Origin: Nakazawaea peltata
Lineage: Eukaryota; Ascomycota; Pichiomycetes; Alaninales; Pachysolenaceae
Direction: 5' to 3'
NCBI GenBank assembly: GCA_001599355.1
Contig: BCGQ01000010.1
Span: forward strand, 186,001-250,000
DNA: 64,000 nt
Position numbers and translations under genes: made by a program. This document shows positions 1-64,000 of this stretch, piece by piece. Each line of letters starts with the position of its first letter. The stretch's first letter is position 1. Under the pieces are notes generated by a model. The model was not told the origin of the DNA and did no database searches. It worked only from the letters and a program-made list of their open reading frames with translations.

Positions 1-379
1 CAACACTATTCCAATTTTCACTGTTCATATCATTGATTTAGTATTGACCAGACTCATTGCCAAGGGCGGTATGCTGAAACAAGAGGAGATCAACAACAAA
101 AAGGCTCAAATTTTGTACGAGGCCATCGACAAGTACCCTGAATTATACGTTCAGCCAGTTGATAAGAGCTGTAGATCTCAAATGAACGTTGTTTTCACCA
201 TCAATGGAGAGGGCAACGAAGCCAAGTTCTTGAAAGAAGCTGAGTCCAAGTACAAGTTGACTGGATTAAAGGGTCACAGATCCGTCGGTGGTATGAGAGC
301 TTCGATCTATAACGCTGTTGAGTTAGAGAGTGTCGAATTGTTAGTTAAATTCATTAATGAATTTGCAGCTTCTGCCTAA
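1..379 (+). CDS. SER1: Phosphoserine aminotransferase, C-terminal part (5' end outside window)
   Basis: The frame opens at base 2 and runs to the TAA ending at 379, giving the last 125 residues of a pyridoxal-phosphate aminotransferase. Phosphoserine transaminase converts 3-phosphohydroxypyruvate and glutamate to phosphoserine in cytosolic serine synthesis. The recognisable parts are the segment TVHIIDLVLTRLIAKGG and, near the end, GHRSVGGMRASIYNA, which in this family holds the C-terminal phosphate- and substrate-contacting arginine. The PLP lysine and the N-terminal half lie outside the window. No internal ATG should be taken as the start, because the reading frame is open from the left edge. 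The family assignment is secure from these motifs; gene completeness cannot be judged here. Confidence 0.93.
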   Translation, partial: NTIPIFTVHIIDLVLTRLIAKGGMLKQEEINNKKAQILYEAIDKYPELYVQPVDKSCRSQMNVVFTINGEGNEAKFLKEAESKYKLTGLKGHRSVGGMRASIYNAVELESVELLVKFINEFAASA

Positions 380-704
380 ATTAATAGACATTTTTTCTTA
401 CAAATATATAAATATAATTTAAGTTCAATTAGAATTTTTTACAGTATTTTACAAAGCCCTTCCCTCAAAGCCCTCCCCGCACCTACTATGATCGAGTAGT
501 CTTCCCCTCACATCACCTTCTCTGTCCGTCTCCCTCGCCCCTTTACGCATCGTCTATTCTTGTGCCCCTTTTTCATATCGCCTGCGCATCTGCGCATCGC
601 CTGTCGCGTAATCTACGCGTTAAAGCTTGTGGAGGCGAAAAAGACAGGGACAGGCATTGACAGTGATTACACTGACAGCTACGATACAGTGAGAGCCTCA
701 CACA
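380..704. promoter_or_regulatory. SER1 3' region and MEC3/HUS1 promoter
   Basis: The stretch holds an AT-rich SER1 3' flank (about 380-455) followed by a pyrimidine-rich segment (about 455-560) and the leader of the checkpoint gene starting at 705. A 68-codon open frame at 560-766 overlaps the first exon in another frame and has no protein-like features. I see no RNA gene. Confidence 0.5.
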
Positions 705-1660
705 ATGAAGTTAAAGCTCTCGACTTCTCATACAGACGCATTGAAAAGTATGTATTACGTTGGTAGTTATCACGTTGTCTATCCATTTACTAACACTCAT
801 CAGATGCCCTTGGGGTCGCCCTCTCTTTAAGAAAGTTCTGTGTCTTGAGATTCACCGAATCTCATTTACATGTTGTCTCGCTGTCTTTGAATGAACCACA
901 AGTATGGTCGAAACTATCGAAGGAGCTGTTTGACGTTTACGAGGTGGAGTCTATTCGTGACAATATAATACTGTTAGAGATCAATGTTGAACCCTTATTC
1001 CAACTGTTAAAGAACTACGAGAGAGCCAATTCAGACGAGTTATCCATTAGATTACAAAGAAAAGCATCCAATGGCTCGGGAGGTACCAAATCGAAGCTGC
1101 TTCTGACCTTGGCTGTGTTCTACAATGAACATCTAAGTGCTACTTCTACTGTTCTGCATACATTCAGAATCCCAATTAGATTATTGAAGAAAGAAAGTGA
1201 CGAGAGAATTATTGAACCCTCATTAGTTAATGTTGATTTATTGATGACTTTACGAAGAGATATTGTTCCTTTATTCAGAAGGATTGATAGATATAAAAAG
1301 ACCTCTAATATATTGAATATATCCGCGTCGAGGGATGGATATCTTGGGTTCACAATCCAAGAAGAACTCCGATCTGTGACGATATCATGGCGAGCCAAAT
1401 TAGAACTGCAAATCCTTGATAATTCCCAGACTCAATCACAAAACGTTTCTCAACCTTCCGTGGATCCCTCTCAACCTGTCAATGTTCTGGTTCAATTGAA
1501 AGATTGGAGATTAGGTCTGAGGTTATGTGAGTTAAGTGATAAAGTTACTCTTTTCATGGGACAGAATGAGCTGCTAGTGTTACATTGCAATCTTGACGAT
1601 GTGTCACCTTGTGAAGTGGTTTACTTCATTAGTAGTGTGAATAGATACGAAGAGATTTAA
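705..1660 (+). CDS. MEC3: Hus1/Mec3 checkpoint clamp subunit, two exons
   Basis: The model is join(705..747, 804..1660), 299 residues. The intron 748-803 is 56 nt, with donor GTATGT, branch TACTAAC at 788-794 and acceptor CAG at 801-803. Splicing joins MKLKLSTSHTDALK to NALGVALSLRKFCVLRF, which restores the N-terminal strand and helix of the Hus1 family. The body shows the family pattern (VWSKLSKELFDVYEVES, then EINVEPLFQLLKNYERA, then HTFRIPIRLLKK) and ends in a PCNA-like C-terminal strand, YFISSVN. Hus1 (Mec3 in S. cerevisiae) forms the PCNA-like 9-1-1 clamp with Rad17/Rad9 and Ddc1/Rad1 at DNA lesions and activates Mec1/ATR. The neighbouring GCD7 repeats the S. cerevisiae YLR288-YLR291 neighbourhood and supports orthology. 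An annotation ignoring the intron would start near 845 and lose about 28 residues. Confidence 0.85.
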
Positions 1661-1987
1661 CGAATAGATCTGATTAGACATATTTAACGCCTCCTGGCAT
1701 TAAATAGAACTAACCAAAACTGTATATTATGATATGGGGCCAGATAATTACAATTACACCAGAAGATGCAATCGTACTCAAAAGCCGGCCCTTCACTTTA
1801 AAAGGTCTTGATTTGGCCCGTTACCTTATTGAGATAGATCTCGAAGGCATCCAGCTCAAGATCTGGTCATAGAAGGACCAGACCGAGCGAGGCAAAGGGC
1901 AATGATTCGTTGAGGACGAATTTGAGATTTAATTCAGAGGTGATATCGCTGCTTACAGGCAGGTTCAAACGGTGCAAAAAGATGAAC
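1661..1987. other. Convergent 3' intergenic region, MEC3/GCD7
   Basis: This lies between the 3' ends of two converging genes. It contains an ATG-initiated open frame of 47 codons at 1729-1872 on the + strand (ending KIWS) with ordinary amino-acid composition. I recognise no family, see no splice signals that would extend it, and do not call it a gene. No RNA gene or repeat is apparent. Confidence 0.4.
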
Positions 1988-3144: not shown

Positions 3145-3259
3145 CTCAACCCACTTCTAATCTGTCTATACACTTCTCTCTATAACTCTGTAAGGCCTCG
3201 ATCTTCCAGTTTGGAAATAGGTGAGAAAATTTTTCGATTTCCTAATTTGGAATTGGGTG

Positions 3260-3271
3260 TGCACGACCTTT
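3260..3271 (+). promoter_or_regulatory. TGCACGACCTTT promoter element upstream of GCD7
   Basis: This 12-mer lies 116 bp upstream of the GCD7 start codon, in the gap shared with the SRP68 3' end. The same word recurs upstream of several other genes in the window (for example 34794, 37823, 63352). The binding factor is unknown to me. A (CA)n run at about 3374-3390 lies between it and SRP68. Confidence 0.45.
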
Positions 3272-3405
3272 AGAGGGGTTTAGTCACCGGGGGACCATTG
3301 GGATCATAGGATCATTGGGGATCAGATATTGAAGCATTGAAGTACTACAGTACTGCTCTACGTACTACCATTCTACACACACACACACACAAACACCACC
3401 TTTTA

Positions 3406-5040
3406 TTAACGTCCTCCAAATAATCCAAAGAACGACTTCTTATCCTTCAGTTCATCACCCTTCAGCTCAACAGAGTCAACCGTCTTCTGACTACCCTCAT
3501 AATCGATATAATTAAAGGCAATATCGAAAAGAACTGGCTTCTGGTGAATCAATTGGAACTTCTTAACATTGACTAACTTCGAGAAATCAGCTGGAATGTT
3601 CTTCAAATTGTCCGAGTAATATTGATCAGCATTGAAATGGTTCTGTTTAGAAAGATAATAGTCGGTGACCAGTTGTAATTTGGATACTTGTTGACTAAGA
3701 GACTCCTTCAATGAATCCAAATCAGACACTTGGGGTAATTGTGGTTCAGAAGAGAGGTCCTGGTTGTAATCACAATTCTCGATCATTTGTAACAGCTTAT
3801 AATATAACAGTAAAGCTTGCTTGAAATGGTTTTCCAATAAATGAGATTCCAGTAATTTGGTCAACTTAAGGATTTGGTAGTACAACTCGTAAATCTCAAG
3901 GCTCTTCCATATGCCCTCATCATTATAAACACCTGGTAACTCCTTAGTCAGACTCAAAGTTTGAGAAATGTTATCCAACAATTTAACCGATTTCTTGATA
4001 GCAGCAGCCGATTTGGATCCAATGTCTTCCAATAAAGTCAGATCTCTTTGAATCTTCAAGAAATTCAACTTGTAATTTACATATGTCAATAAGATTTGAG
4101 AGTCTTGGCTCTGTTCATCATTGTACTCATCCAGATGCTTTTCCATCTCTTGCTTATGGTGCTCCAAGAGCTCCTGCCAAGCCAGTAATGGAGAATCATA
4201 AGTCAACACATTGTTGTCATTGATTTTGGACTGTTTCGATTGCAGATCCAGCAACAATCTCGAGGTGTCCTCGTTATGGATTTGACAAGTGAACTTAGAC
4301 CAAGATACTTCCTTTATTAAATCCATCTCTTGGTCCTCTTGTTCGAGAACGGATTCATCGATATACTTCAATCCATTTTTGGTGATCGATTTGGTGTCTT
4401 GTTGTAATTGATTTCTGGCGATTTGGTTCAAGTTTGGAGATACAGATTTACTCAACTCGGAGTTGTACAAAGCCAATTTGAATACCGGGTCGACCTCATT
4501 CACCAAGATATCGGTAACGATCTCATCGTTGTTCTTCAATTGTTGCAAACCCAAACGGGCAAACGAAAGCGCAAACAACGAGTCTACCCAGCGCTTTCTG
4601 AATACCAAATAGGATCCTTCGATAATGGCCAGATAAATGTACAATTCCAATTTCAGCAGATCATCTAGGTTGGAAGACTCGTCTACTATCAGAGTCAACT
4701 TCAGCATATTCTGAAGACATTTACGGAACTTGGACTGAGCGAATCTTTCCTTCAGTTTAGATGATTGTACGGAAATAACCCATTTGGTTTCCAAAGTGTA
4801 AAGTAAATCCCTTTCGATGGTGAGCAATAAGATTTCACCCACTTTCGGATTGGACTCGAAATCAGATGCCCCAATCTCATGCTTCCTATAGTTCTTGGTG
4901 TTCTTGTTCTTCAACGACAGACCGGCTCTGAGCTTGGCCAATCTTTTGTTGATTCTGTGTCTTTCGGCATGGAAATCACTTGCTGAAGACAACGATTTCA
5001 GGAATCTGTTGCCAAATGTAGCCACTAATACCGATTCCAT
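3406..5040 (-). CDS. SRP68: Signal recognition particle subunit SRP68
   Basis: This is a 544-residue protein. The first ATG of the frame is at 5040; upstream codons are in frame but begin with TTG, so the start is MESVLVATFGNRF, which aligns with the N-terminus of yeast Srp68. The N-terminal RNA-binding helical region (DFHAERHRINKRLAKLRAGL, then IERDLLYTLETKW) and the YLVFRKRWVDSLFALSFARLGL segment are typical. The middle is helical TPR-like repeats, and the C-terminus ends in KKSFFGLFGGR, comparable to the short glycine/aromatic tail of SRP68 proteins. SRP68 pairs with SRP72 on SRP RNA in cotranslational targeting to the ER. S. cerevisiae Srp68 has 599 residues. No intron is visible. Confidence 0.88.
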   Translation of the reverse strand: MESVLVATFGNRFLKSLSSASDFHAERHRINKRLAKLRAGLSLKNKNTKNYRKHEIGASDFESNPKVGEILLLTIERDLLYTLETKWVISVQSSKLKERFAQSKFRKCLQNMLKLTLIVDESSNLDDLLKLELYIYLAIIEGSYLVFRKRWVDSLFALSFARLGLQQLKNNDEIVTDILVNEVDPVFKLALYNSELSKSVSPNLNQIARNQLQQDTKSITKNGLKYIDESVLEQEDQEMDLIKEVSWSKFTCQIHNEDTSRLLLDLQSKQSKINDNNVLTYDSPLLAWQELLEHHKQEMEKHLDEYNDEQSQDSQILLTYVNYKLNFLKIQRDLTLLEDIGSKSAAAIKKSVKLLDNISQTLSLTKELPGVYNDEGIWKSLEIYELYYQILKLTKLLESHLLENHFKQALLLYYKLLQMIENCDYNQDLSSEPQLPQVSDLDSLKESLSQQVSKLQLVTDYYLSKQNHFNADQYYSDNLKNIPADFSKLVNVKKFQLIHQKPVLFDIAFNYIDYEGSQKTVDSVELKGDELKDKKSFFGLFGGR

Positions 5041-15302: not shown

Positions 15303-16604
15303 TTACTCGATGATTCTGGTGATCAAACCAGTACCAACAGTCTTACCACCCTCTCTGATGTTGAAACGTTGACCAACTTCCAATGGGGTTGGGTGCAACA
15401 AAGAGCACTCCATTTCAACGTTGTCACCTGGCAAAACTTGGGCAGAGTGGTCAGCACCTTCTGGGAAGGTCAAGATGACGGTCTCATCGGCAGTTCTAAC
15501 AAACATTTGAGGTCTGTAGTTCTCACCGAATGGAGAGTGTCTTCCACCTTCATCCTTGGTCAAGATATACAAAGAAGCCAAGAATTTGGTGTGGGCCTTA
15601 ACAGTGTTTGGCTTACACAAGATCATACCTCTCTTAACGTCGTCTCTCTTAATACCTCTCAACAAGATACCGTTGTTGTCACCAGCCATAGCTTGGTCCA
15701 ACTCCTTCTTGAACATCTCAATACCGGTAACAGTGGTCTTAATTGGCTCCTTGTTGAAACCGACAATTTCAACTTCGTCACCCTTCTTCAAAGTACCACG
15801 TTCAACTCTACCGGTGACGACAGTACCTCTACCAGAAATGGAGAAAGAGTCCTCAATTGGCATCAAGAATGGTTGCTCCAAATCTCTCTCTGGGGTTGGG
15901 ATATGTTCATCAACAGCGTCCAACAATTTCATAATAGCCTCAGATCCAATCTCTGGTCTCTTACCTTGCAAAGCCATCAAAGCAGATCCCATGATAACAG
16001 GGGTGTTGTCACCGTCAAAACCGTAGACACCCAACAAATCACGCATTTCCATCTCGACTAATTCCAACATCTCTTCGTCATCGATAGCATCAACCTTGTT
16101 GACGAAGACAACCAAGTTTTGGACACCAACTTGTCTGGCCAACAACAAGTGCTCTCTGGTTTGAGGCATTTGACCATCGGAAGCGGCAACGACAATGATA
16201 GCACCGTCCATTTGGGCGGCACCGGTGATCATGTTCTTAATATAATCACTGTGACCTGGACAGTCAACGTGGGAGTAATGTCTCTTGTCGGTTTCATACT
16301 CAACGTGGGCGGTAGAAATGGTGATACCTCTGGCTCTTTCTTCTGGAGCTCTGTCAATGGATCCATAGTCCAAGAAGTTGGCGGCACCCTTCTCAGACAA
16401 AACCTTGGTGATGGCAGCAGTCAAAGTGGTCTTACCGTGATCAACGTGTCCAATGGTACCAATGTTGACGTGGGGTTTGGAACGGTCAAAAGTAGCGGCG
16501 GTTCTCAATTGGATACGTTGAGAAACGGCGACTCTCTTAGCAGCGGCTCCGCTAAAAACCTTAGCAGATGCAAAGATGTTTCCAATAGTCTTAGTAGAGA
16601 ACAT
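15303..16604 (-). CDS. TUF1: Mitochondrial translation elongation factor Tu
   Basis: The product is 433 residues with a basic, serine-rich presequence ([19 protein letters not shown], about 40 residues) followed by a bacterial-type EF-Tu. GTPase motifs are GHVDHGKT (G1), the switch I region [17 protein letters not shown] (G3), NKVD (G4) and GSAL (G5). Domains II and III follow ([32 protein letters not shown]). It carries aminoacyl-tRNA to mitochondrial ribosomes in the matrix. Codon use is strongly biased to the frequent set, as expected for a highly expressed gene; several long antisense open frames here are by-products of that bias. Confidence 0.97.
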
Positions 16605-16968: not shown

Positions 16969-19900
16969 ATGATCAACAATAGCACGACACTGCTCACGGC
17001 CTCGGTGGTCTTCCGCCAAACGGAAGAATATGGCCTTGACCATGTCAATATTTCAAAGGATTTGTATGAAGAGATGTTTGGAGCTGAAGGAGGAGAAGAA
17101 GGTGATAACAATTTGGGGGTTAATGGTGGTGAGGATATCTCCAGAGGATTTAATGATGGGTCAGTCCTTATGGACGGGTCTCTTGAGGAAGAAAATGTCC
17201 ATATCAATGGCCAATTCTCCAATGGGACCTCTCCCCTCTTTGCCTCGATCAAGTTGATAGGTGAATGGTCGGATTTTGAGTATCAATTGCATCATGTCTC
17301 GGTGAAATTTGATCTCCCACCTCGTACAGTTGAATTGAACAATATATCAACTTTGCTCAAATTCAAAAATCAGATCACTGTCCAATCGTGTCATATCATC
17401 CCGGTCCCTGCCAGTGTAGTACCCCTGTTGAAGAGAATCATTGTCAGTTTTCCACAGGAGGTGTATGATGTGATGCAGACATTCACCAAACTGAATCTCA
17501 CACATGTAATTTCAACATCCTGCTACTCGGATATCGTGCGGAAGGGTGATCTTTTGCGTAATCTCAATGGAATCGTAATCCAATGTGAACCTCTTAACCA
17601 GGGACTTCTTTCATCTGACACAGAAATCATAGTAGTCAGGGAAACCAAGGAGACTCTCTCTCAAACCAACTTAAATAACTCAAAACCAACTACAGAAGAT
17701 CTTATCGAGTCTATTCCCTTCAATTTCCCTCAATATCTCTCATCTCCCAACACCATCAACCTGCTAAGCTTCAAATTGGAGCCCTTGAGGTCAAAAAATC
17801 ACATCTGCTCACCAGCTCCTGGCCCAAAGGATGACGACGAGATATTTGCTTTCGTTAAATTCTCCCAACTTGTAAAATTGAATGTCTTCAGTGGAGATTT
17901 AGTCCGCTTCAAATGCTCTCTGGACTCTCAACCTCGTTATTTACGTATATTCAGCTTCTCCGAGCCAAATAATTACAAGTCGGACACCATCTACATGAGC
18001 CCATTGTATTGGATAAATCTTGAATATCCCGAACAAATCAGAATTGAGAATAATGAGGGCCAGCCACACACCGACAATGCCCTGGTACTGAAAAAGGTCA
18101 CCATAGAAAGAGTAGTTTCACCTGTAACATTATCTAAATCCTACCAACATTTGTTCTTATCGAACTTAAAACACTATTTTGAGACCAAGCATCGACTCGT
18201 ATTTGAAGGACAGCTCATTCTGATCCCAATAGACAGTATTTTACTGACCTCTATCCCCTCAGAAGAGCTCCCTGAGATTATTCCTCAGGGCAATTGTGAT
18301 ATGATTCTGTGGTTTAGAGTTAAAGATATCGAGTCAGACTCGGCCCAAGAGGCTGACCAGTATATAATTGACTCTAATATCACTAAAATGATCCAGTCGG
18401 GAACTGTGAAGCTGTCTCCTCCTGATAACAGATCTCATTACTATGAATATCTCAACATTGAGAAAGTGTATTATGGTCCGCAGCCTAGACATGCTCAAGA
18501 GTTCCACAAAATAATCTCAACCTCTTTAGATAAACCAGTACTACAGACTTCTGTATTGTTACATTCCCAATCTCGAGGAATTGGCAAGTCATTCCTCGTC
18601 CAACAATGCTGTATTACATTGGGAGCTCATTTATACGAGTTAGACTGCTTTGAGGTCTTGATCCCTGGAGCAGATATGAAGACTATTGGGTCTATTAGAG
18701 GTAGACTTGATCGCATTGTAGAGAGTTGTAGTCAGGGTTCCTCGTTGGTGATCTACATGAAGCATATCGAGCTGTTGAGCAAGAAGAAAGACGTAAAACA
18801 GGATAATTTGGTTCTTAAATTGGCCGAGTTGATCGATGACTATATAAAATATGAGGGTGTAATTGTAGTGGGTTCATGTGGTGACCCAGATGAGCTCAAC
18901 CCGTTAGTAAGAAACAAGTTTAAATTTGAGATCGAGCTCTCGATTCCAACCCAAGATGAAAGAGCTGAGATATTCAAATTCTGGCTCGATTCTCTGCTGG
19001 CCCCAGGAGATGAGTATATATTTAAACTTCGTGATGATCTCTCTTTGGAGTCATTGGCCATCCAGAGTGCTGGATTATCCCCTAGGGATTTGTATTCTAT
19101 TGTAGAGGTGACCAAACAATTGGCATTGGACGAATGGGATGACACTATTGAGTCTCTGTATTATATAAATGGAGGATATGTCAGCTTGACCCCAGAGTTA
19201 TTTGAAAAGGCTATAAACGATGCCAGAAGCAAATTCAGTGACTCTATTGGAGCCCCTAAGATCCCTGATGTTAAATGGGAAGATGTCGGAGGATTGGATC
19301 TCGTCAAGGACGAAATATTGGATACTATCGACATGCCATTGAGACACCCAGAGTTATTTGCCAATGGGTTGAAGAAAAGATCGGGTATCTTGTTCTATGG
19401 ACCTCCTGGAACCGGAAAAACATTGTTACTGAAGCTGATCCTGACCAATTTCTCATTGAATTTCTTCAGTGTCAAAGGTCCGGAGTTATTGAATATGTAT
19501 ATTGGAGAAAGTGAGGCTAATGTGAGAAAGGTGTTCCAAAAGCTGAGAGACTCCAAACCTTGTGTAGTCTTCTTTGATGAGTTGGATAGTGTAGCACCTA
19601 AAAGAGGTAACCAAGGTGACAGTGGAGGTGTGATGGACAGAATAGTCTCGCAATTACTTGCAGAGTTGGACGGTATGAGCTCTAGTGGTGGTGATGGTGT
19701 CTTCGTTGTGGGGGCCACCAACAGACCAGATTTGTTAGATGACCTGCTTTTGCGTCCAGGTAGATTTGATAAAATGTTGTATCTTGGTATTTCCGATACT
19801 GATGAGAAGCAGTATAACATTTTACAGCTGTTGACCCGGAAATTCGATAAAGAGCCGTCGTTGGACTTGATGAGTATTGCTCGTCAATGTAGTTTCACTT

Positions 19901-20190
19901 TTACTGGAGCCGATTTCTACGCTTTATGCTCGGATTCTATTTTGAATGCCATGCTCCGAATTTCAGGTAAAATCGATGAGAGGATAAAAATTCTTAACCT
20001 GGAAAGAGACCCCTCCGAACCGGAGATCACTACTAGATACTTCTTTGACAAAATCCTGACTTCTGAAGATGTAAAGGTGGTCGTAAGTGAGGCCGATTTC
20101 CAAAGACTGCTCCGTGAATTGACTCCCTCTGTTTCACAGGATGAATTAGATCATTATTTGAACATTAAGAAGTCATTCGAGCAAAATTAA
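16969..20190 (+). CDS. PEX6: Peroxisomal AAA ATPase Pex6
   Basis: This 1073-residue type II AAA protein has a divergent N-terminal region and a degenerate first ATPase domain (SRGIGKS, about residue 536, with no canonical Walker B). The second ATPase domain is canonical: VGGLDLVKDEILDTIDMPLRHPELF, Walker A GPPGTGKT (811-818), MYIGESEANVRKVFQ, Walker B VVFFDELDS, and a GATNRPDLL sensor. GPELLNMYIGESEANVR and RGNQGDSGGVMDR mark Pex6 rather than Pex1. Pex1-Pex6 extracts ubiquitinated Pex5 from the peroxisome membrane. Codons 821, 823, 825 and 926 are CTG and fall where the family has alanine (LLAKAIA; DDALLRPGR); codon read as L in QKLRDSKPC is likewise CTG at an alanine position. These sites are the best evidence here for the altered genetic code. 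Confidence 0.96.
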   Translation: MINNSTTLLTASVVFRQTEEYGLDHVNISKDLYEEMFGAEGGEEGDNNLGVNGGEDISRGFNDGSVLMDGSLEEENVHINGQFSNGTSPLFASIKLIGEWSDFEYQLHHVSVKFDLPPRTVELNNISTLLKFKNQITVQSCHIIPVPASVVPLLKRIIVSFPQEVYDVMQTFTKLNLTHVISTSCYSDIVRKGDLLRNLNGIVIQCEPLNQGLLSSDTEIIVVRETKETLSQTNLNNSKPTTEDLIESIPFNFPQYLSSPNTINLLSFKLEPLRSKNHICSPAPGPKDDDEIFAFVKFSQLVKLNVFSGDLVRFKCSLDSQPRYLRIFSFSEPNNYKSDTIYMSPLYWINLEYPEQIRIENNEGQPHTDNALVLKKVTIERVVSPVTLSKSYQHLFLSNLKHYFETKHRLVFEGQLILIPIDSILLTSIPSEELPEIIPQGNCDMILWFRVKDIESDSAQEADQYIIDSNITKMIQSGTVKLSPPDNRSHYYEYLNIEKVYYGPQPRHAQEFHKIISTSLDKPVLQTSVLLHSQSRGIGKSFLVQQCCITLGAHLYELDCFEVLIPGADMKTIGSIRGRLDRIVESCSQGSSLVIYMKHIELLSKKKDVKQDNLVLKLAELIDDYIKYEGVIVVGSCGDPDELNPLVRNKFKFEIELSIPTQDERAEIFKFWLDSLLAPGDEYIFKLRDDLSLESLAIQSAGLSPRDLYSIVEVTKQLALDEWDDTIESLYYINGGYVSLTPELFEKAINDARSKFSDSIGAPKIPDVKWEDVGGLDLVKDEILDTIDMPLRHPELFANGLKKRSGILFYGPPGTGKTLLLKLILTNFSLNFFSVKGPELLNMYIGESEANVRKVFQKLRDSKPCVVFFDELDSVAPKRGNQGDSGGVMDRIVSQLLAELDGMSSSGGDGVFVVGATNRPDLLDDLLLRPGRFDKMLYLGISDTDEKQYNILQLLTRKFDKEPSLDLMSIARQCSFTFTGADFYALCSDSILNAMLRISGKIDERIKILNLERDPSEPEITTRYFFDKILTSEDVKVVVSEADFQRLLRELTPSVSQDELDHYLNIKKSFEQN

Positions 20191-25302: not shown

Positions 25303-25326
25303 AATATCTGAAAAATTATATTAGTT

Positions 25327-37878: not shown

Positions 37879-38412
37879 ATGTGGATTGAAGGTGGGGAGC
37901 CTAGAGAGAAGCCTAGAGAGAAGCCTAGAGAGAAGCTAAAGGAGAGCCTAGAGGGAGTCTTGATAACGATGAGCCTGGACAATGACACCTTACCGGGTAC
38001 AGAGAACCAATCTACGGATTCCAATCTCAAATACATCCACGAAAGATTGGAGAAACTCAATGACATCGACTCCAAATTGGTGACGTCTCTCTCTGATTTG
38101 TCAATGATTTTAGAGACACTTCGAGATGGAAAGGCTCTTAAAGAGGAGTCTAATGAGATGCGAGATGCGTTAGAAACCCGGTTTCAACAGAATGTCGGCT
38201 CATTCTACGGTAATTTAAGTAATGCATCGGTCTTATTACGTAAAGAGATCAAGAATTTAGACGACAAAATATCAGCTGGAAGCTCTACAACGGAGGAAGG
38301 ATTGAATATCTTACCTATAAATATCAATAAGAAGGCGGTATGGACCGGGGAATTCAAATTGAAGCAAGAGATCACTAATTTGGACTCGATACTACCGTCC
38401 GATAATAAATAA
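37879..38412 (+). CDS. MED11: Mediator subunit Med11
   Basis: The frame gives 177 residues from the ATG at 37879, or 147 from a second ATG at 37969 (MSLDNDTLPGT). The longer start adds KPREKPREKLKE, encoded by three copies of a 12-bp repeat, and may be leader sequence. The conserved core is YIHERLEKLNDIDSKLVTSL, then QQNVGSFYGNLSNASVLLRKEIKNLD and ILPININKKAV, all matching yeast Med11, ending in a helix that closes the bundle. Med11 pairs with Med22 in the Mediator head and contacts TFIIH. The neighbours reproduce the YMR110-YMR116 order of S. cerevisiae, where MED11 is YMR112C. The 3' end overlaps HFD1 by 38 bp. Confidence 0.88.
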   Translation: MWIEGGEPREKPREKPREKLKESLEGVLITMSLDNDTLPGTENQSTDSNLKYIHERLEKLNDIDSKLVTSLSDLSMILETLRDGKALKEESNEMRDALETRFQQNVGSFYGNLSNASVLLRKEIKNLDDKISAGSSTTEEGLNILPININKKAVWTGEFKLKQEITNLDSILPSDNK

Positions 38413-39946
38413 TCAGCAATATAACCACCAAAATACCACTTACGACCAGCAATTCAGGACTATCAAGGATGTTTGTAGAGATACGACCAGTTCTTTTGAG
38501 CCACAAAGGTTTACGGTCAAGGATACGAAGAAGCCATTTCTGTTTAGTCGATGTGTATACTGGATATCTCAATTTCAATAACATTTCGGCAATCCAAGGC
38601 TGTTTAACAACAGGTCTTGTATGGGTGAACAGATCGATCGAATATTTACCGTGATAAGATCCATAGCCACTGCTACCGACACCACCAAATGGAAGTGTGA
38701 CTACGGCAACTTGCAGAGTGTTATCGTTGATGACAACAGATCCCGATCTAATTATGTCTTTGATATGTTGAACTTCTTTTTTAACTTCTGAATAAATGTA
38801 CATCAGTAATGGACAGTCATGTCCATTTTGGATAATTTGTTGTAATCCCAGGTCTACATTGTCATCATACGTGACAATTGGCAATATTGGGGCAAAAAGC
38901 TCTACCTGCATTGTAGAATCTTCCCATCCCACTTTATCAAGAATTACGGGATACATAGATCTGGTTTGTTCTTCACATTGAGTCAATCCACCAGTAACAA
39001 ATTCACCTTTTGTCGAACTCAATGTAGCCATTGTACGTTCATACAGTCTTTGATTGACTAAATGAGTTTGTTGTACCAGCACAAGAGCAGTATCGGGATA
39101 GAATTCTTTCTCCAATACATACTTCATCAGTTCTACTAAGTCTTTTCTGATCTTCGAGTCACATAAAACATAGTCTACAGCCACACAAGTTTGGCCCATA
39201 TTCATAAACCGTCCCCAAAGAATCTTTCTCAGGATGGTTTTATAGTCTTTAGAACTGTTAGCGGTGACAATAGCAGGACTCTTACCACCCAACTCCAAAA
39301 TAGTTGGAGTCAATTGTTTAGCAGCGGCAGTGGCTACAATTTTACCCACAGTTTGAGAACCAGTGAAGAATATCAAGTCCAATTTCTGTTCAAGCAACAC
39401 CTTCGTCTCTTCTACACCTCCATTGACTACCCTGAATATCTCTGGATCCAAGGTTTCTGTGAGCATCTCAGTGAATTTTGAGGTGAATTTAGGAGTCAAT
39501 TCAGATGGCTTCAAAATACAGCAATTACCCAGAGCAATCGCTCCAATAACAGGTGAAAGAGCAAGCATCAATGGGTAGTTATACAGCCCAATAACCAAAA
39601 CGACACCTAAAGGTATCTTTTCCAATTGAATACTGGAGATCAAATACAGCAAGGGCGTCAGGTAAGGCTTCTCTGGGGCCACCCATTTCTTCAAATTCTC
39701 CATTATCTCCACCAACTCATCTCTCAAGAAAGTGTATTCAAACAGCTTGAACTCGAAGTGTGGTTTATTGAAGTCCTCTTGGATCAGCAACGACAACTCA
39801 TCGATGTGATCTTCTAAAGCAAAGTACAATTTGCGGAGCTGATCTAGTCTGAAATCGAGGGTTCTCAATTTGGCACCGCCGGTGGTATGGAACGAGGATC
39901 TCAAGTCGGAGACGTGTTTTGGAATTGATGATAATGGGGTGAACAT
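38375..39946 (-). CDS. HFD1: Fatty aldehyde dehydrogenase Hfd1
   Basis: The product is 523 residues (S. cerevisiae Hfd1 has 532). It is a class-3-type aldehyde dehydrogenase: NAD site IGLYNYPLMLALSPVIGAIALGN and LIFFTGSQTVGKIV, catalytic Glu in ILELGGKSPAI, catalytic Cys in NMGQTCVAVDYVLC, and PFGGVGSSGYGSYHGK. A C-terminal membrane segment (LLVVSGILVVILLIIYYRTV, about 497-516) anchors it, as in Hfd1 and its animal FALDH relative. Hfd1 oxidises long-chain aldehydes from sphingolipid breakdown and takes part in the 4-hydroxybenzoate branch of coenzyme Q synthesis; it sits on mitochondria and lipid droplets. It is convergent with MED11. Confidence 0.93.
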   Translation of the reverse strand: MFTPLSSIPKHVSDLRSSFHTTGGAKLRTLDFRLDQLRKLYFALEDHIDELSLLIQEDFNKPHFEFKLFEYTFLRDELVEIMENLKKWVAPEKPYLTPLLYLISSIQLEKIPLGVVLVIGLYNYPLMLALSPVIGAIALGNCCILKPSELTPKFTSKFTEMLTETLDPEIFRVVNGGVEETKVLLEQKLDLIFFTGSQTVGKIVATAAAKQLTPTILELGGKSPAIVTANSSKDYKTILRKILWGRFMNMGQTCVAVDYVLCDSKIRKDLVELMKYVLEKEFYPDTALVLVQQTHLVNQRLYERTMATLSSTKGEFVTGGLTQCEEQTRSMYPVILDKVGWEDSTMQVELFAPILPIVTYDDNVDLGLQQIIQNGHDCPLLMYIYSEVKKEVQHIKDIIRSGSVVINDNTLQVAVVTLPFGGVGSSGYGSYHGKYSIDLFTHTRPVVKQPWIAEMLLKLRYPVYTSTKQKWLLRILDRKPLWLKRTGRISTNILDSPELLVVSGILVVILLIIYYRTVVSSPN

Positions 39947-41262: not shown

Positions 41263-43020
41263 ATGAAAATGCAACAAGTTAGACGGTATACTGGTCTTGT
41301 GACCAAGAAGACCGGACTTTCTTCTGCTTTAGGGGCATCTACCAAACAAAATTCCCATTTCTTCATGACTCCTCAGAAGTTGACTAAGAAGCAAATCAAA
41401 GCCCTTCCTACTCATGAGTTATTACAGAAATTGGGGTATATAAGACAGCCACGTCCAGGCCTTGTACATTGGTTACCCATGGGACTCGCTACATTACGTC
41501 AATTGGAGGATATTATCCATTTCCGGATGCGTGAAATCGACGCCATAGAAGTTTCATTGTCCTCACTTTCAGGTAAGGAATTGTGGGAGAAGACTGGCAG
41601 ATGGGGGAACACCGAGCTCTTCAAATTGGAAGATCAAAAGGAGAAGGAGTATTGCCTTGTGCCAACCTGTGAAGAAGAAATCACCACTTTGATAGCAGAC
41701 GATTTGTTGAGTAGTAAAAACTTACCATTATTACTGTACCAAATCTCGAGAAAATATAGAGATGAAAAGAGACCAAGAGCAGGGTTATTGAGAGGTCGTG
41801 AATTTGTGATGAAAGATCTGTATTCCTTCCATTTGACTCAAGATTGTGCTATGCAGATGTTCCACAAGGTCAATGATCTGTACCGTCGAATTTTCCAGGA
41901 TTTGAAGGTCCCATTTGTATCACTGAAGGCAGACTCTGGAGATATTGGGGGTGATTTATCGGTAGAATGGCACTACCTTCATGAAAATGGAGAGGACACT
42001 TTATTTACTTGTGATAATTGTGGAAATGTGTCTAATAGTGAGGTCTGTACAAGTTTTAGTGACGAGAAGGTGGACGAGGTCAAGGTCCTGTACTATACAA
42101 ATACCTCCAAAGACACATTGATCTGTCTTTACTACCCACTGTCCAGAACGTTGGTCCCACTGTTTCTGAAAGAGTTTATAAGTGACATTGACTTGAAATT
42201 TAGAGATGAAGAGAAGATTCTTCTGATCTTCAGAGATGCAGATGAGAATGATTTCTTAAGCAAAAGCATCGTAAGAGTAATGGACTCGAGATTGCATGAC
42301 AGATCGAACTTCCCAGACCTCGAAGTCCCATATCATAGAAGTACTTTCTCGACTTTGACCGATATTCCATTAGTTGAGCTGGAACTGGGGGAAATCTGTG
42401 GTGAATGTGAGGAAGGTGTCTTAATGACAGACCGACTGATCGAAGTAGGTCATACTTTCTTCTTAGGAGATAGATATACAAAACCGTTAGAGGTGGAATT
42501 ACAAGGGGAAGATGTGTTAATGGGATGCTATGGAATCGGTGTCTCCCGGTTAGTTGCACTGATTGTCGAGATGACCAGAGATGATCTTGGATTATGCTGG
42601 CCTCTGTCGATTTCTCCATACCAAGTGACATTCATCAATGCTCCTGTTGAAGATCCCGAAGAGTTCAGCAAAAATGTCGGCATCATGGACGTCATAGCAA
42701 ATTCGTTAGCTGCGAACGACCGTGTGCGCATTCAAAAGGATCTTCGTGAAAACGTCTCTTTTGGGCGTAAGATGATGGATTCCAAAATGCTTGGTATTCC
42801 TTTACAGGTGGTGATCGGTGGTAAATTCCCTAAGGTGGAAATTGAAGTGAGGGGTAAAAGATACGGAGAAGGGCCATTTGAAGTTGATAAATTATACGAG
42901 AATTTGGCGTCTCGATACGAATGGGAAATGATAAGAGATGACCCGAAAATCGGAGAGAAACATACGTTGCATATCGATGGGTTAGCTGATGTTATTCGCG
43001 TTTTACTCCAGGACTTGTAA
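41263..43020 (+). CDS. AIM10: Mitochondrial prolyl-tRNA synthetase
   Basis: The product is 585 residues from ATG at 41263 (MKMQQVRRYTGLVTKKTG), with a basic presequence; upstream codons in frame begin with TTG. The bacterial-type ProRS core has GLVHWLPMGLATLRQLEDI, LVPTCEEEITTLI (motif-2 entry), YQISRKYRDEKRPRAGLLRGREFVMKD, then GDLSVEWHYL and YGIGVSRLVALIVE (motif 3), followed by an anticodon-binding domain (PYQVTFINAPVE; DSKMLGIPLQVVIGG). Codons 186 and 206 are CTG and fall in MKD-A-YSF and ND-A-YRRIF, alanine positions of the family. It charges mitochondrial tRNA-Pro in the matrix. A promoter word TGAACGACCTTTTGA lies 64 bp upstream. Confidence 0.92.
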   Translation: MKMQQVRRYTGLVTKKTGLSSALGASTKQNSHFFMTPQKLTKKQIKALPTHELLQKLGYIRQPRPGLVHWLPMGLATLRQLEDIIHFRMREIDAIEVSLSSLSGKELWEKTGRWGNTELFKLEDQKEKEYCLVPTCEEEITTLIADDLLSSKNLPLLLYQISRKYRDEKRPRAGLLRGREFVMKDLYSFHLTQDCAMQMFHKVNDLYRRIFQDLKVPFVSLKADSGDIGGDLSVEWHYLHENGEDTLFTCDNCGNVSNSEVCTSFSDEKVDEVKVLYYTNTSKDTLICLYYPLSRTLVPLFLKEFISDIDLKFRDEEKILLIFRDADENDFLSKSIVRVMDSRLHDRSNFPDLEVPYHRSTFSTLTDIPLVELELGEICGECEEGVLMTDRLIEVGHTFFLGDRYTKPLEVELQGEDVLMGCYGIGVSRLVALIVEMTRDDLGLCWPLSISPYQVTFINAPVEDPEEFSKNVGIMDVIANSLAANDRVRIQKDLRENVSFGRKMMDSKMLGIPLQVVIGGKFPKVEIEVRGKRYGEGPFEVDKLYENLASRYEWEMIRDDPKIGEKHTLHIDGLADVIRVLLQDL

Positions 43021-47982: not shown

Positions 47983-49734
47983 ATGGTATCAACACGGCGA
48001 TTCAAAGATGAGAATGCAAAAGAAGCCGTTCCCAATTATAATATGGACGATCCCATCGAAATATATAACCCTCTGGTACGATTCTACAAACTGAGAGTAA
48101 ATGGAGAGAGAAGATATGTGGTAAAGATAAGTTATGATCCTGAGCGTGGTCTGCATTTGACTCCAGTTCATAATGAGAGAAGGGGACGACCAAGGAAATA
48201 TGAAGCTGGATCGACTGGTGGAGTGCGATTGCTCAAAGTCAATTTCAAGAAGAACAAATTGAAACCCAGCTCCACTACTAAACGAAGATACGAGACTCCT
48301 CCAGCTGCTGATTCAGACTCTTCTGATGAAGAGGATTCATTTTCGGTTCCATTCAATGGGATATTGAGCTTCGAAGACGCCAGTACATATAATACTCGAC
48401 TGAAAACTGAGGATAGAGAAGCATTCATTAGCCTGTTCCCACCTCCCAATGAAAACCAAGGACGCATTAGGGAGGTTTGTATAGCGGGACACGACATTGA
48501 GACATGGTACACACTGCCTTATCCTGAAGAGTATGCGCTTTGCAATAAATTGTACGTTTGTGAGTATTGCATGAAATACATGAATTCTGCCATGATATAT
48601 AAAAGACACCTGATGAAATGTCGCTGGACGAACCATCCACCAGGTTGTGAGATCTACAGAGATGTGTCTGGTAAGACCGGGGTGTCGATTTTTGAGGTGG
48701 ACGGTCGTAAGGAAACTGTCTACTGTCAAAATCTTTGTCTTTTCCTGAGACTTTTTCTTAACTCCAAAACTCTTTATTACGATGTGGATCCATTTATGTT
48801 TTATGTGCTCGTGGAGCATAAAACTGAGGGGGGTTATCATTTTGTGGGATATTTTAGTAAAGAAAAGTTGAACTCTACCAATTATAATGTCAGTTGTATA
48901 TTAACGTTGCCGTTATATCAAAGAAAAGGATATGGAAACTTACTCATTGACTTCAGTTACTTGTTGACTCGTCGTGAATTCAAAGTGGGTACTCCCGAGA
49001 AGCCCTTGAGTGACTTGGGGCTCTTAAGTTATAGGAACTATTGGTGTGTAACTGTATGTTATCTGCTTCGAGAGATGATTAGATGCACTAGCGATATATC
49101 AGTACTGGAAATTTCGAGTTATACTGGGATGATTCTGAATGATGTGGTGACTCTGTTGGAATTAATGGGTTTTTTGGTTTCATCTGATGAACAAAACTAT
49201 TCGATAATGGTTGATTTGTCGAAACTTGAACTTATTATTGAGAATTTCGAAAGGAAGGAGTATATTACACTCAAGCTGGACCGACTTCTTTTCAAGCCAG
49301 TAATATTGGGACCATCTGGAGGTATTAACACTACGTCAACTATGGTGTTGACACTGGATTCGAATGAGATGAGTGGAATTCTGCTGATTGTGGGATTTTT
49401 AAAAGATGATTTAGATGATTCTAGGACTGTAGAAAGTCAGACTATGGATGTAATTAGAGGGAGGGGATCGGGTGCGGCACCAGTTGTTGAGAAATTGAAT
49501 GGATATGTAGTTTGTAAGGGAGGGGATTATGATGTGGGTGGTAGTGAAGAAGAAGCAGAGGAAGAAGCAGAAGAAGAAGCAGAAGAAGAGGGGTTGGAAG
49601 ATGATGAAGAGGAAGAGGAAGAACTAGATGATATCGAACCCGAAGATTCAGACTCTCTCGATGACGAATATACCCTGGACGAAGACGCCGAAGACCCTGA
49701 TGATGATGATGTAGAAGACTACGAAAGTTCATAA
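47983..49734 (+). CDS. SAS3: MYST histone acetyltransferase Sas3
   Basis: The product is 583 residues. After a basic N-terminus with a VFSVPFNG-type linker, the MYST domain spans about 160-440: a C2HC zinc finger (CEYCMKYMNSAMIYKRHLMKC, with the family HPPG), the catalytic cysteine in NYNVSCILTLP, the acetyl-CoA loop YQRKGYGNLLIDFSYLLTRRE and PEKPLSDLGLLSYRNYW. The long acidic C-terminal tail (about 520-583, repeated EEAEEEAEEE encoded by a purine repeat) is a hallmark of Sas3. Sas3 is the catalytic subunit of NuA3 and acetylates histone H3 K14 and K23. Gene order with PIN4 and TOD6 supports orthology to YBL052C. A short upstream open frame precedes the start. Confidence 0.9.
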   Translation: MVSTRRFKDENAKEAVPNYNMDDPIEIYNPLVRFYKLRVNGERRYVVKISYDPERGLHLTPVHNERRGRPRKYEAGSTGGVRLLKVNFKKNKLKPSSTTKRRYETPPAADSDSSDEEDSFSVPFNGILSFEDASTYNTRLKTEDREAFISLFPPPNENQGRIREVCIAGHDIETWYTLPYPEEYALCNKLYVCEYCMKYMNSAMIYKRHLMKCRWTNHPPGCEIYRDVSGKTGVSIFEVDGRKETVYCQNLCLFLRLFLNSKTLYYDVDPFMFYVLVEHKTEGGYHFVGYFSKEKLNSTNYNVSCILTLPLYQRKGYGNLLIDFSYLLTRREFKVGTPEKPLSDLGLLSYRNYWCVTVCYLLREMIRCTSDISVLEISSYTGMILNDVVTLLELMGFLVSSDEQNYSIMVDLSKLELIIENFERKEYITLKLDRLLFKPVILGPSGGINTTSTMVLTLDSNEMSGILLIVGFLKDDLDDSRTVESQTMDVIRGRGSGAAPVVEKLNGYVVCKGGDYDVGGSEEEAEEEAEEEAEEEGLEDDEEEEEELDDIEPEDSDSLDDEYTLDEDAEDPDDDDVEDYESS

Positions 49735-59131: not shown

Positions 59132-60091
59132 ATGTCTTTCAAGTTTGACTTATCATCTTTGCAACAGCAATTGCAACAAACATCGCAACAATTCTCACAA
59201 CAACTTCAAACTGGGTTGGAGCAAGTGACCAAGGAGCTGAGCTCTTTGAACGACAACTTGCAACCATTTTTGAAGCGTACTCAGAGATTGCTGCAAGAGA
59301 AGTTGGGAGGTATCAGTGATATTTCCGAGTTACCACGTGAGTACATTGAATTGGAGAAGAAGGTGGATGATTTGAAGAAGGTTTACTCCAAGATTTTGGA
59401 TGTGACTGACCAATACGGTTTGGAATCGTATGATTATCCACCACATTTGAAGGAGAATTTCACTGAGGTGACTAAGTCATTGACCGAGAAGTTACAAAGT
59501 TTGTCTCAGGCCACCACTACTCTGGAGCTGGAGCTGATTTTGACTTCTTCTAGTGACAAGAAACTGATCCCAAAGACTTTCCATCACCAATTGGGTAAGG
59601 CCACCTCTGCTCCTGCTAGCACTTCGGATGAAGATGCTTCTGAGGCTTTGATTAAGCTGTTGGTTAAAGTCAGTGAAGTTGAGTTCAAGATCGGTGACGA
59701 GAGATTGAAACAGGACAAAGAAGTTATTATTGATTTCAACAACAAGATCAAGAACATCTTGAGTACTCAATTCTCCAGCACTTCCAACTACAGAAAGAAC
59801 GTTGAGAATGCTCGTATCACCTTTGACGTATTACGTTCTGAGCTGAAACAATATGAGGAGTCTGGTTCTGTTCCAGAACTGTTGCAACAAAAGTTGGACT
59901 CTGCTGAGGATGATTTAGTCAATGCCACCGAGATTGCTGTCGAGTCTATGAAGAAGTTGATCACCCCTCTGGAGCCAATTAACTTATTCAAAGTCTACAC
60001 TAAGATCCAATTGAACTATCACAAGAACGTTGTTCTGTTATTGACCGAATTGGAGAAGGATTTGGAACTGATTCCAATTGATGAAGAGTAA
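59132..60091 (+). CDS. GVP36: BAR-domain Golgi vesicle protein Gvp36
   Basis: The product is 319 residues from ATG at 59132 (MSFKFDLSSLQQQLQQTSQQ; 326 in S. cerevisiae); the longer frame upstream begins with TTG. The N-terminal amphipathic Gln-rich helix and the BAR helices (LKRTQRLLQEKLGGISDISELPREYIELEKKVDDLKKVY) match Gvp36, as do YDYPPHLKENF and the C-terminal helices. BAR proteins sense or bend membranes; Gvp36 acts in Golgi and endocytic traffic. Codons 131, 133 and 135 are CTG in TTxExExIL; Gvp36 has small residues there, consistent with Ala decoding. Confidence 0.88.
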   Translation: MSFKFDLSSLQQQLQQTSQQFSQQLQTGLEQVTKELSSLNDNLQPFLKRTQRLLQEKLGGISDISELPREYIELEKKVDDLKKVYSKILDVTDQYGLESYDYPPHLKENFTEVTKSLTEKLQSLSQATTTLELELILTSSSDKKLIPKTFHHQLGKATSAPASTSDEDASEALIKLLVKVSEVEFKIGDERLKQDKEVIIDFNNKIKNILSTQFSSTSNYRKNVENARITFDVLRSELKQYEESGSVPELLQQKLDSAEDDLVNATEIAVESMKKLITPLEPINLFKVYTKIQLNYHKNVVLLLTELEKDLELIPIDEE

Positions 60092-61581: not shown

Positions 61582-62730
61582 ATGAACAGCAAAAAGCTCG
61601 TAGTACGAGAAAATGAAGATATTTCAAACGTGGTACTGAGACATGGTCACTCCTCTGACAGAGTCATTCAATCCTCCTATAATGACTTGGTTCCAAGCAG
61701 AGATGAGTACTCCCTGGGGCAGTTACTGAGACCAGATGAGAAGCTGGTAGAAGGTGAGACCTTGCTGACCCAACTGCTGCTTAATAAGATTGTTGAACAA
61801 AAACTTGGCGCTCAGTCGCTGTTTCTGTCCCTGCTGAACTCTCTGAGTATATCAAAGGATAAAAATGGAGCTACTTATATTAGATACAAATCATATAGTC
61901 TGTTGAATAGTGAACCATTTGAAAGGGTGATCAAGATTGTTGATAAACAACTTGATCCTATGCTGCCTGCTCTGAAATTCAAGGTGACTAAGACTCCACT
62001 GCGTCCACCTTCACCTCCACTGCCTATTCTTCATCAAACTGGAACAGGATCTGCCAATTTCAATAGTAAAGATTGGCATATTCCTCTGCTGGTATCGAAT
62101 TGGAAGAACCAAAAGGGTTTCACCATTCTGATAGATAAGAGGATGTCATATTTAGATAAAGATAACAAGGAAGAAGAGATCAATCTGGAGAAATTCTCTC
62201 TGTTAAGTGAGCTGTTACAAAAAGCTGAGCAAGAGGCTAGAGAAGAGATCAAATTGAAGCAACAAATGCAGGTAAAATTAAAGGAAAGAGAACAACAAGA
62301 GAGAGAATATAAATTGCGGGAGTTAGCAAGTAGATCTGGATCAAATTCTGCCACTGGTTCCAATGCTATCTCTTATTCAACTGACTATAAAAGTGCCAAA
62401 CAAAGAGAGATTAGTAGAGAGGAAAGACGTAGAAAAGCCGAAAGAGAACTCAAATTATCACAACAAAAGAAGACCCTGGCTCCTCCTGCTGCTCCTTCTC
62501 TCGATAAATCCAATGTAGATGCCAGACTTTACTACAAAGCCTCATCTTCTAACAATAATGCCGTCTACGATGGAGAATTATTTGAAGATAAAGATGTGAT
62601 GGAAACTGTTTATCGTAATAGTGCGGGAACAGGAGATGAAGATATCAGATCACTGCAACCTGTAGTATTTGAGAAAGGCGAAACCAAAGACGAACTGGAT
62701 CCTCCACTGAAGAAACCAAGAAATCTGTAA
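61582..62730 (+). CDS. PRP45: Spliceosome factor Prp45 (SNW/SKIP)
   Basis: The product is 382 residues (379 in S. cerevisiae). The SNW domain is recognisable from RPPSPPxPILHQ and IPxxVSNWKNQKGFTILIDKR, followed by a Lys/Glu/Arg-rich helical stretch (EREQQEREYKLRELASRSG; SREERRRKAERELKLSQQ) and DARLYYKA and ELFEDKDVMETVYR near the end. Prp45 is a component of the NineTeen-related complex in active spliceosomes. Codons 65, 66 and 147 are CTG at alanine positions (TQAALNKIV; PPSPPAP), strong support for CUG-Ala. POP5 converges from the right, as YAL032 and YAL033 do in S. cerevisiae. Confidence 0.94.
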   Translation: MNSKKLVVRENEDISNVVLRHGHSSDRVIQSSYNDLVPSRDEYSLGQLLRPDEKLVEGETLLTQLLLNKIVEQKLGAQSLFLSLLNSLSISKDKNGATYIRYKSYSLLNSEPFERVIKIVDKQLDPMLPALKFKVTKTPLRPPSPPLPILHQTGTGSANFNSKDWHIPLLVSNWKNQKGFTILIDKRMSYLDKDNKEEEINLEKFSLLSELLQKAEQEAREEIKLKQQMQVKLKEREQQEREYKLRELASRSGSNSATGSNAISYSTDYKSAKQREISREERRRKAERELKLSQQKKTLAPPAAPSLDKSNVDARLYYKASSSNNNAVYDGELFEDKDVMETVYRNSAGTGDEDIRSLQPVVFEKGETKDELDPPLKKPRNL

Positions 62731-62766
62731 ACTACATAGTGTAATATAAATGATGCTATTATATGA

Positions 62767-63201
62767 CTAAATAATCTCCACATCATCGGCTAATATGGAG
62801 TCAGTAAGTTGTCTATTACGACGGATTGCGTATTGTTCACATTTCTTGATGGTCCCACTCACACGGGAGACTCGCACCACACATGGTTTACCTCCAATAT
62901 TATCTATGGTCAGTACGGCGGCACAGACGATCCTATAGTATTCTCTTGGGCACCTTAGGATCCCGGTGCTGGTCAGATTTGAGAAATATTTGATCACCAA
63001 AGTAGTGCTAGCGACACCAGAACCGAAATTCCCAGCTAGTTCATCAATAGCCAGTCGCACTAACTTGATGAGGATCTTGGTGTTGATTGACTGAGGGGTC
63101 AGTTGCCTTAGTGAAAGGGAGTAATTGGAGGAGATGGATGAGATCTCTGTTGGGGGGTATAAAACCTCAAAAAGGATGTATCTTGTTTTTAAGCGGACCA
63201 T
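62767..63201 (-). CDS. POP5: RNase P/MRP subunit Pop5
   Basis: The product is 144 residues. The start MVRLKTRYILFEVLYPP is nearly identical to that of yeast Pop5. A RRM-like fold follows: SINTKILIKLVRLAIDELAGNFGSG, then STTLVIKYFSNLTSTGILRCPREYYRIVCAAV and LTIDNIGGKPCVVRVSRVSGTIKKCE. Pop5 pairs with Rpp1 in nuclear RNase P (tRNA 5' end) and RNase MRP (rRNA). The upstream 160 bp include TGCACGACCTTTTAGTGA at 63352-63369. Confidence 0.95.
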   Translation of the reverse strand: MVRLKTRYILFEVLYPPTEISSISSNYSLSLRQLTPQSINTKILIKLVRLAIDELAGNFGSGVASTTLVIKYFSNLTSTGILRCPREYYRIVCAAVLTIDNIGGKPCVVRVSRVSGTIKKCEQYAIRRNRQLTDSILADDVEII

Positions 63202-63749
63202 AACTTCTGGGAGGGAATGTGATGGAAGTGATTAGGAGGGTGATATGGAGTGATATGAACGGTGATATGCTGATGGGGGGGTTGGTGGAGTAGTGATATT
63301 TGGAGAGAAGAGAAGAAGAGAAGAAGGGAAGAAGAGAAGGAAATTTGAGTGTGCACGACCTTTTAGTGATAAATTGCTGAGGAATCGATGGAGGATCTGA
63401 ATGGCAGGTAATCGGTCTAGGGTGGAGATGAGGGTAGTGAGAGCATTAGTGAGAGAATGCAGCGAGAGGAAATAGCGAGAGAAAGTAGTGAGGTGAGCAG
63501 CATCCGAGAGTGGTGCAGGGGACGGCTGTTGCCGGGCACTGGGCACTGGCCTTCTGCCGGGCACTGGGCACTGGGCACTCTGCTCATCGCAAAAGAAAAG
63601 AAAAAAATTTTCAACCTCTCCCTAAAAAGCTCTGGCGCAAATGGATAAAAAAAACAGAAGGATTAGAGGGCTGGTAGGTTGAAGTGCAGTAGTGAACCGA
63701 AGGTATACCACAGTTATCGGATAGTTATACGACATTTACAATCCAGAAT
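63202..63749. promoter_or_regulatory. Divergent promoter, POP5 / ELP3, with GC-rich repeat
   Basis: 548 bp. It contains an AGAAGA run (63302-63342), the word TGCACGACCTTTTAGTGA (63352-63369), and repeated CCGGGCACTGGGCACTGG units (63532-63589) resembling the GCCGGGCAC repeats at 30101. Open frames through it are low complexity. The ELP3 side is plain AT-rich. No RNA gene is seen. Confidence 0.45.
63352..63369 (+). promoter_or_regulatory. TGCACGACCTTTTAGTGA element upstream of POP5
   Basis: Identical over TGCACGACCTTT to the copies upstream of GCD7 and MGR3. It is 151 bp from the POP5 start (opposite orientation) and 381 bp from the ELP3 start. Confidence 0.45.
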
Positions 63750-64000
63750 ATGCCTCCAAAATCAAAACAACGTTTAGCGCCCGAAAAAGAACGGTTCCTC
63801 CAATGTTGTGGTGACGTCTCTTTGGAGCTTGTGGCTTCCTTGAAATCTTCAAATAAAGACATCAATTTAAATGGGTTGATCATGAGATATTCGAAGAAAC
63901 ACAAATTGAAATCGATGCCTCGTTTGACCGATATCATCAGCTCGATCCCAGACCAGTACAAGAAATACTTGATCCCCAAATTGAAACTGAAACCTGTCAG
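63750..64000 (+). CDS. ELP3: Elongator subunit Elp3, N-terminal part (3' end outside window)
   Basis: From ATG at 63750 the frame runs to the window edge, 83 codons. It reads MPPKSKQRLAPEKERFLQCC, then LNGLIMRYSKKHKLKSMPRL and IISSIPDQYKKYLIPKLKxK, the N-terminal region of Elp3. The radical-SAM and acetyltransferase domains lie beyond the edge. Elp3 makes the cm5U34 precursor on wobble uridines of tRNA. Codon 80 is CTG at the alanine of the near-universal PKLKAKP motif, which supports CUG-Ala. The coding region is not terminated within the window. Confidence 0.9.
   Translation, partial: MPPKSKQRLAPEKERFLQCCGDVSLELVASLKSSNKDINLNGLIMRYSKKHKLKSMPRLTDIISSIPDQYKKYLIPKLKLKPV

Follow-up and report, generated by a model that had tools for sequence, protein, structure and literature searches.

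Abundant CUG codons, almost certainly read as alanine, and a CAG-anticodon tRNA with G3:U70 in a yeast nuclear genome

Which amino acid is specified by CUG in a yeast whose genes carry CTG at conserved alanine positions? The question is raised by a window of 64 kb (the whole stretch analysed, G000:C10:186001-250000) from a nuclear genome of 11.63 Mb in 11 contigs. This genome is almost certainly on NCBI code 26, in which CUG means alanine, by way of a tRNA with anticodon CAG (tRNA-CAG) that has a G3:U70 pair and would be charged by alanyl-tRNA synthetase (AlaRS). An ortholog tally, a residue classifier and the features of tRNA-CAG (G3:U70, A73, short variable loop) together lead to this reading, and a CUG-Ala code, as claimed in the initial annotation of the window, was borne out by both the CTG columns and the tRNA. 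The code change is rare and already known, from a single group of yeasts, and the present genome is a further instance. The heavy use of the reassigned codon was unexpected, and the origin of the tRNA is a question raised by the data.

For the ortholog tally, PEX6, PMT4, PRP45 and ELP3 from the window and PRP8 and RPC2 from elsewhere in the genome were aligned with orthologs of solved structure, using one match per piece. ELP3 begins in the window and its remainder was taken from the genome. CTG was translated as X, so that the alignments could not be steered by it. The six genes contain 167 CTG codons; 130 of these lay within the entered alignment blocks, 6 of them opposite gaps, leaving 124 ungapped sites. 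Outside the tally stood PEX6 before codon 694 (poorly aligned, with mixed residues), PMT4 before codon 57, RPC2 after codon 932, PRP45 beyond codons 16-215, Prp8 beyond the entered blocks, and AIM10.

Opposite CTG, Ala was found at 69 of the 124 sites, followed by Ser (11), Pro (9), Thr (7), Gln, Asn and Glu (4 each), Val and Arg (3 each), Leu (2) and others once or twice. The enrichment is for Ala, not for Leu or Ser, and is far above chance. Where the flanks were at least 60% identical (88 CTG sites), the counts were Ala 54, Ser 7, Pro 7, Thr 5 and Leu 2. The Ala share opposite CTG (56%) was the same as that opposite GCN codons (95/170, 56%). The remaining Leu codons stood opposite Leu at 328 of 442 sites, and for all other codons with at least 3 sites the standard amino acid ranked top in the same table. 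A classifier based on residue distributions placed Ala over Ser for CTG by a log2 likelihood of 126.5 bits. As a control, codons with at least 5 sites (Met and Trp excluded) were left out one at a time, and 55/55 tested other codons were recovered.

Broken down by gene, Ala stood opposite CTG at 8/9 ungapped sites in PEX6 (codons 821, 823, 825, 859, 926, 954, 1030 and 1047; codon 730 faced Cys and 1011 a gap), 12/15 in ELP3 (all 15 CTG codons of the whole gene, against the best-matching Elp3), 9/12 in RPC2, 11/20 in PMT4 (with 3 Ser, 3 Thr and 1 Leu), 25/47 in PRP8 (pieces 2/8, 12/19 and 11/20) and 4/21 in PRP45 (best match, with 6 Pro and 3 Gln). Among residues other than Ala, those being Pro, Gln, Arg, Leu or Met made up 19/55 opposite CTG versus 10/75 opposite GCN (P = 0.005). 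This excess is the pattern expected from one-base neighbours of CTG; it was not leaned on, because PRP45 contributes 11 of the 19.

Thirteen codons had been named beforehand as CTG at family alanine positions (PEX6 821, 823, 825 and 926; AIM10 186 and 206; PRP45 65, 66 and 147; ELP3 80; GVP36 131, 133 and 135), and all 13 were located as in-frame CTG at the coordinates given for them. The four PEX6 codons face Ala in the solved Pex6, and ELP3 80 does so in all three Elp3 alignments shown. The assignment held in part for AIM10, where both codons are Ala in the best bacterial prolyl-tRNA synthetase (ProRS) match and the third alignment shown has Gly at 186. It was likewise partial for PRP45: codon 66 is Ala in three alignments shown, codon 65 is Asn (9l5r) or Val (SNW1), and codon 147 is Pro in 9l5r and Ala in SNW1. 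Across its best match, AIM10 has Ala at 3 of 7 aligned CTG sites (186, 206 and 433), the rest being Phe, Val, Gly and Ser.

For comparison at the level of protein families, Pfam searches were run on ten proteins, each with CTG coded as Ala, Leu or Ser. Families missing under any coding (such as AAA_16 and Acetyltransf_1) were dropped, leaving 21 family matches common to all three, some of which overlap. Summed over these, the scores were 2732.0 bits with Ala, 2671.6 with Ser and 2588.4 with Leu; the best coding was Ala in 16 families, Ser in 4 and Leu in 1. A further seven proteins, Prp8 and six others, were taken from elsewhere in the genome. For Prp8, Ala scored above Leu in 7/7 domains and at or above Ser in 7/7 (one tie); the other six were less clear.

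The tRNA-CAG gene was located by pattern search outside the window (G000:C4:81426-81498); the pattern gave 46 matches, and 30 loci were scanned by ARAGORN. It scores 50.9 bits to Rfam tRNA (gathering score 29) and has G3-U70, A73, U33, G37, A35, a five-base variable loop, a T-run just downstream and one U6-U67 mismatch in the acceptor stem. By eye, the same mismatch is seen in the tRNA-Leu(UAG) gene (L101). G3:U70 is the alanine identity pair, and the genome's tRNA-Ala(AGC) has G3-U70 and A73 likewise. The tRNA called for by the CUG-Ala proposal, one that joins a CAG anticodon to the alanine identity pair, is present in the genome, and it lacks a long variable arm. ARAGORN labels it Leu because the standard code is applied. 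A DNA search of the genome for a second copy returned only the gene itself, a genome-wide tRNA family search showed no CAG tRNA among the 63 of 608 candidates scored, and ARAGORN gave no tRNA in the window. A DNA search with tRNA-Ala returned 6 matches, all Ala (AGC/UGC), with tRNA-CAG not among them, and a TGGC-D-arm pattern likewise missed it. The six tRNA-Ala(AGC/UGC) genes all lie on contig C9, and tRNA-Ala(CAG) lies on C4.

Since tRNA-CAG carries the alanine acceptor identity pair, AlaRS would most likely charge it through G3:U70. AlaRS does not read the anticodon; in the excerpted text of PMC5951914, neither AlaRS nor seryl-tRNA synthetase (SerRS) requires particular anticodon bases. The alanine-charged tRNA-CAG would then decode CUG. 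Expression of tRNA-CAG, its charging with alanine, its decoding of CUG and the presence of alanine in proteins at CUG are all predicted here from sequence.

Several results weigh against alanine or suit another residue better. Serine, the meaning of CUG in the Ser1 (Candida) and Ser2 codes, was the second commonest residue opposite CTG (11/124). Its Pfam scores came near those of Ala and were better in 4/21 families (PMT, slightly; MIR; zf-MYST; AAA_21), and it was again slightly ahead in several domains of RNA polymerase and WD40 type in the proteins from elsewhere. PRP45 (4/21 Ala) and the N-terminal PRP8 piece (2/8) alone would not decide the code. Serine is nevertheless very improbable: it is 126 bits worse than Ala in the classifier, and the tRNA-CAG that was found has no long variable arm. 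A pattern for intronless Leu- or Ser-type tRNA-CAG, which does not cover intron-bearing genes, gave 6 genome matches, none a tRNA by ARAGORN. A standard code, with CTG merely frequent at Leu sites, can draw on the ARAGORN label, on the one family of 21 that scored best with Leu (tRNA-synt_2b of AIM10) and on a few WD40-type families outside the window in which Leu exceeded Ala (e.g. the WDR55 family in a WD40 protein, 87.4 vs 81.9). It is less probable still, as Leu stood opposite CTG at 2/124 sites versus 328/442 for other Leu codons, and scored below Ala in 19/21 shared families.

An ambiguous code, with CUG mostly Ala and a measurable share of Leu, deserves somewhat more weight and is still improbable. 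The bases G37, A35 and A73 are identity bases of leucyl-tRNA synthetase (LeuRS). All three are found in tRNA-CAG, and a tRNA-Leu(UAG) gene that might reach CUG by wobble is present (L101, on the minus strand of G000:C4 near 804530; 208 bases long including an intron of 120 bases, and 88 bases when mature); for these reasons, some leucine may be inserted at CUG. In the excerpts of PMC5951914, the charging of the Candida albicans tRNA with about 3% Leu is put down to G37, and CUG is read by tRNA-Leu(UAG) in species that lack tRNA-CAG, so the modification of U34 in tRNA-Leu(UAG) matters here. Against a Leu share stand CTG codons at conserved Ala sites beside the Walker A motif of PEX6 and in Elp3, and the 2 Leu in 124 give no sign of leucine mattering at the tested CUG sites. 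For Pachysolen, PMC8645108 (in excerpt) cites more than 99% Ala and deems an earlier figure of 10% Leu mistaken. Reading of CUG as alanine is preferred.

With CUG as alanine, codon use could be compared directly. The 31 main window open reading frames (ORFs) contain 380 CTG codons, or 24.6 per 1000 codons, next to 25.3 for GCT and 38.2 for TTG, which agrees with the earlier remark that CTG is not rare. CTG is about level with the most used of the GCN alanine codons and accounts for 380 of 1161 alanine-coding codons (32.7%). In 92 ORFs, not proven genes, from other genome stretches it reached 22.3 per 1000 and 806/2491 alanine codons (32.4%); these stretches are not a random sample, because they were picked for tRNAs and a few genes. 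In 25 window ORFs, the CTG share correlated with codon bias measured as AGA share (rho -0.61, P = 0.001) and gave rho -0.09 (P = 0.65) with TTG share. This suggests that CTG is avoided in highly expressed genes; the suggestion draws mainly on two genes (EF-Tu and S4, Table 1), the wider correlation being mixed.

The excerpted PMC5951914 describes CUG as relatively rare in clades with a changed code, with a tendency toward orphan genes and poorly aligned regions. The five CUG-Ala genomes were excluded from the codon-use survey of PMC6701816 (in excerpt). In a literature search of partial texts without supplements, heavy use of CUG was not seen described for a CUG-Ala yeast, and the abundance is not claimed as unreported. 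Under standard annotation, about one third of the alanines in this genome would be misread as leucine, and translation table 26 is therefore needed. The abundance also indicates that a codon, once reassigned, can be taken up again at conserved positions. From GCN to CUG at least two bases differ and no single silent step is possible; the genome is a good test case for the spread of reassigned codons because CUG was re-adopted at conserved sites although no such step exists.

For the origin of tRNA-CAG, global alignments were made with other tRNAs. The score was 28.5 against tRNA-Val(UAC) (52/73 bases identical) and 25.0 against tRNA-Ala(AGC) (49/73). In a comparison among 18 further tRNAs whose variable loops are short, covering some of the isotypes, these scores were matched or beaten by 3 and 4 of 145 different-isotype pairs, respectively, and lay below 6/8 isoacceptor pairs. 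Where Val(UAC) and Ala(AGC) differ, tRNA-CAG is Val-like at 16 bases and Ala-like at 14. The pattern is a mosaic, with the D and anticodon arms Val-like by 12:4 and the rest Ala-like by 10:4 (regions added by hand, anticodon included). Because of this mosaic and the slightly closer score to Val(UAC), tRNA-CAG does not resemble a tRNA-Ala gene of this genome whose anticodon mutated recently. From tRNA-Val(CAC), a single anticodon change would yield CAG. Three genome patterns for tRNA-Val(CAC) gave 0, 0 and 18 matches, none clearly a tRNA by eye among the 15 listed, which does not establish its absence; one further match falls inside L017, where ARAGORN gave only Ala tRNAs. It is a tentative and rather unlikely proposal that tRNA-CAG is a remoulded tRNA-Val (CAC to CAG by C36 to G, the acceptor stem having acquired G3:U70) or a Val/Ala mosaic, and that CUG has since grown to a major alanine codon (about one third of alanines), highly expressed genes perhaps being an exception. 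An old, drifted tRNA-Ala is at least as likely as the source.

Table 1. Features of the window, with CTG counts and Pfam scores under the three codings of CTG.
Feature	Position	Strand	CTG codons	Pfam bits (CTG = Ala/Leu/Ser)	Remarks
snR36 H/ACA snoRNA	1730-1902	-			83.5 bits
SRP68	3406..5040	-	20	SRP68 204.7/184.7/198.7	
Mitochondrial EF-Tu	15303..16604	-	0		named by eye; 33 GCN codons; P = 2e-6 at window mean share
PEX6	16969..20190	+	24	AAA 197.1/182.5/185.3	10 CTG in tallied codons 694-1071
PMT4-type protein O-mannosyltransferase	25327..27615	-	21	PMT 275.6/268.3/277.8	
Ribosomal protein S4-like	30228..30959	-	0		named by eye; 14 GCN codons; P = 0.004
SNORD24-type snoRNA	36978-37068	-			41.4 bits, gathering 41
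WD-repeat ORF	37059-37649	-			ASC1/RACK1-like by eye
Aldehyde dehydrogenase	38375..39946	-	16	Aldedh 251.3/230.5/243.2	
AIM10, ProRS-like	41263..43020	+	14	tRNA-synt_2b 101.8/103/95.6	
MYST-family histone acetyltransferase	47983..49734	+	17	MOZ_SAS 250/242.6/248.7	
Low-complexity protein, 1615 amino acids	53672-58519	+			repeat units
GVP36 (BAR_2 domain)	59132..60091	+	12	BAR_2 223.7/218.6/220.5	
PRP45 (SKIP/SNW)	61582..62730	+	28	SKIP_SNW 164.5/151/163.4	weakest case
ELP3, start	63750..64000	+			gene runs past window end; locus L111

The low-complexity protein contains units of the type GGAAIGxGAGYAx, and by eye CTG recurs at both x positions in at least 4 repeat units. The SNORD24-type small nucleolar RNA (snoRNA) overlaps the end of the WD-repeat ORF. 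In baker's yeast, snR24 sits in the ASC1 intron, and this arrangement may be conserved here.

The order Alaninales is present in NCBI taxonomy, and the yeast probably belongs to this known CUG-Ala clade. Pachysolen, Nakazawaea and Peterozyma (table 26), correctly named in the initial annotation as precedents according to the excerpted PMC5951914, share with it CUG codons where alanine is conserved and a tRNA that combines a CAG anticodon with alanine identity. Within an incomplete search of the present genome, no Leu- or Ser-type tRNA-CAG was found. The yeast differs from them in that CTG is abundant (22-25 per 1000), including within conserved regions of Prp8, Elp3 and RPC2. In the same source, the clade's new tRNA is derived from tRNA-Ala by anticodon mutation, whereas the tRNA body here is about as close to tRNA-Val, and with a body of such mixed character the published origin of the CUG-Ala tRNA can be put to the test. 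In the CUG-Ser1 (Candida) and CUG-Ser2 (Ascoidea, Saccharomycopsis) clades, the same codon was reassigned through a new CAG tRNA, and the Ser1 tRNA has G37 (PMC5951914, in excerpt), as does tRNA-CAG here. In contrast to both, the residue here is alanine, the variable loop of the tRNA is short and CUG is abundant.

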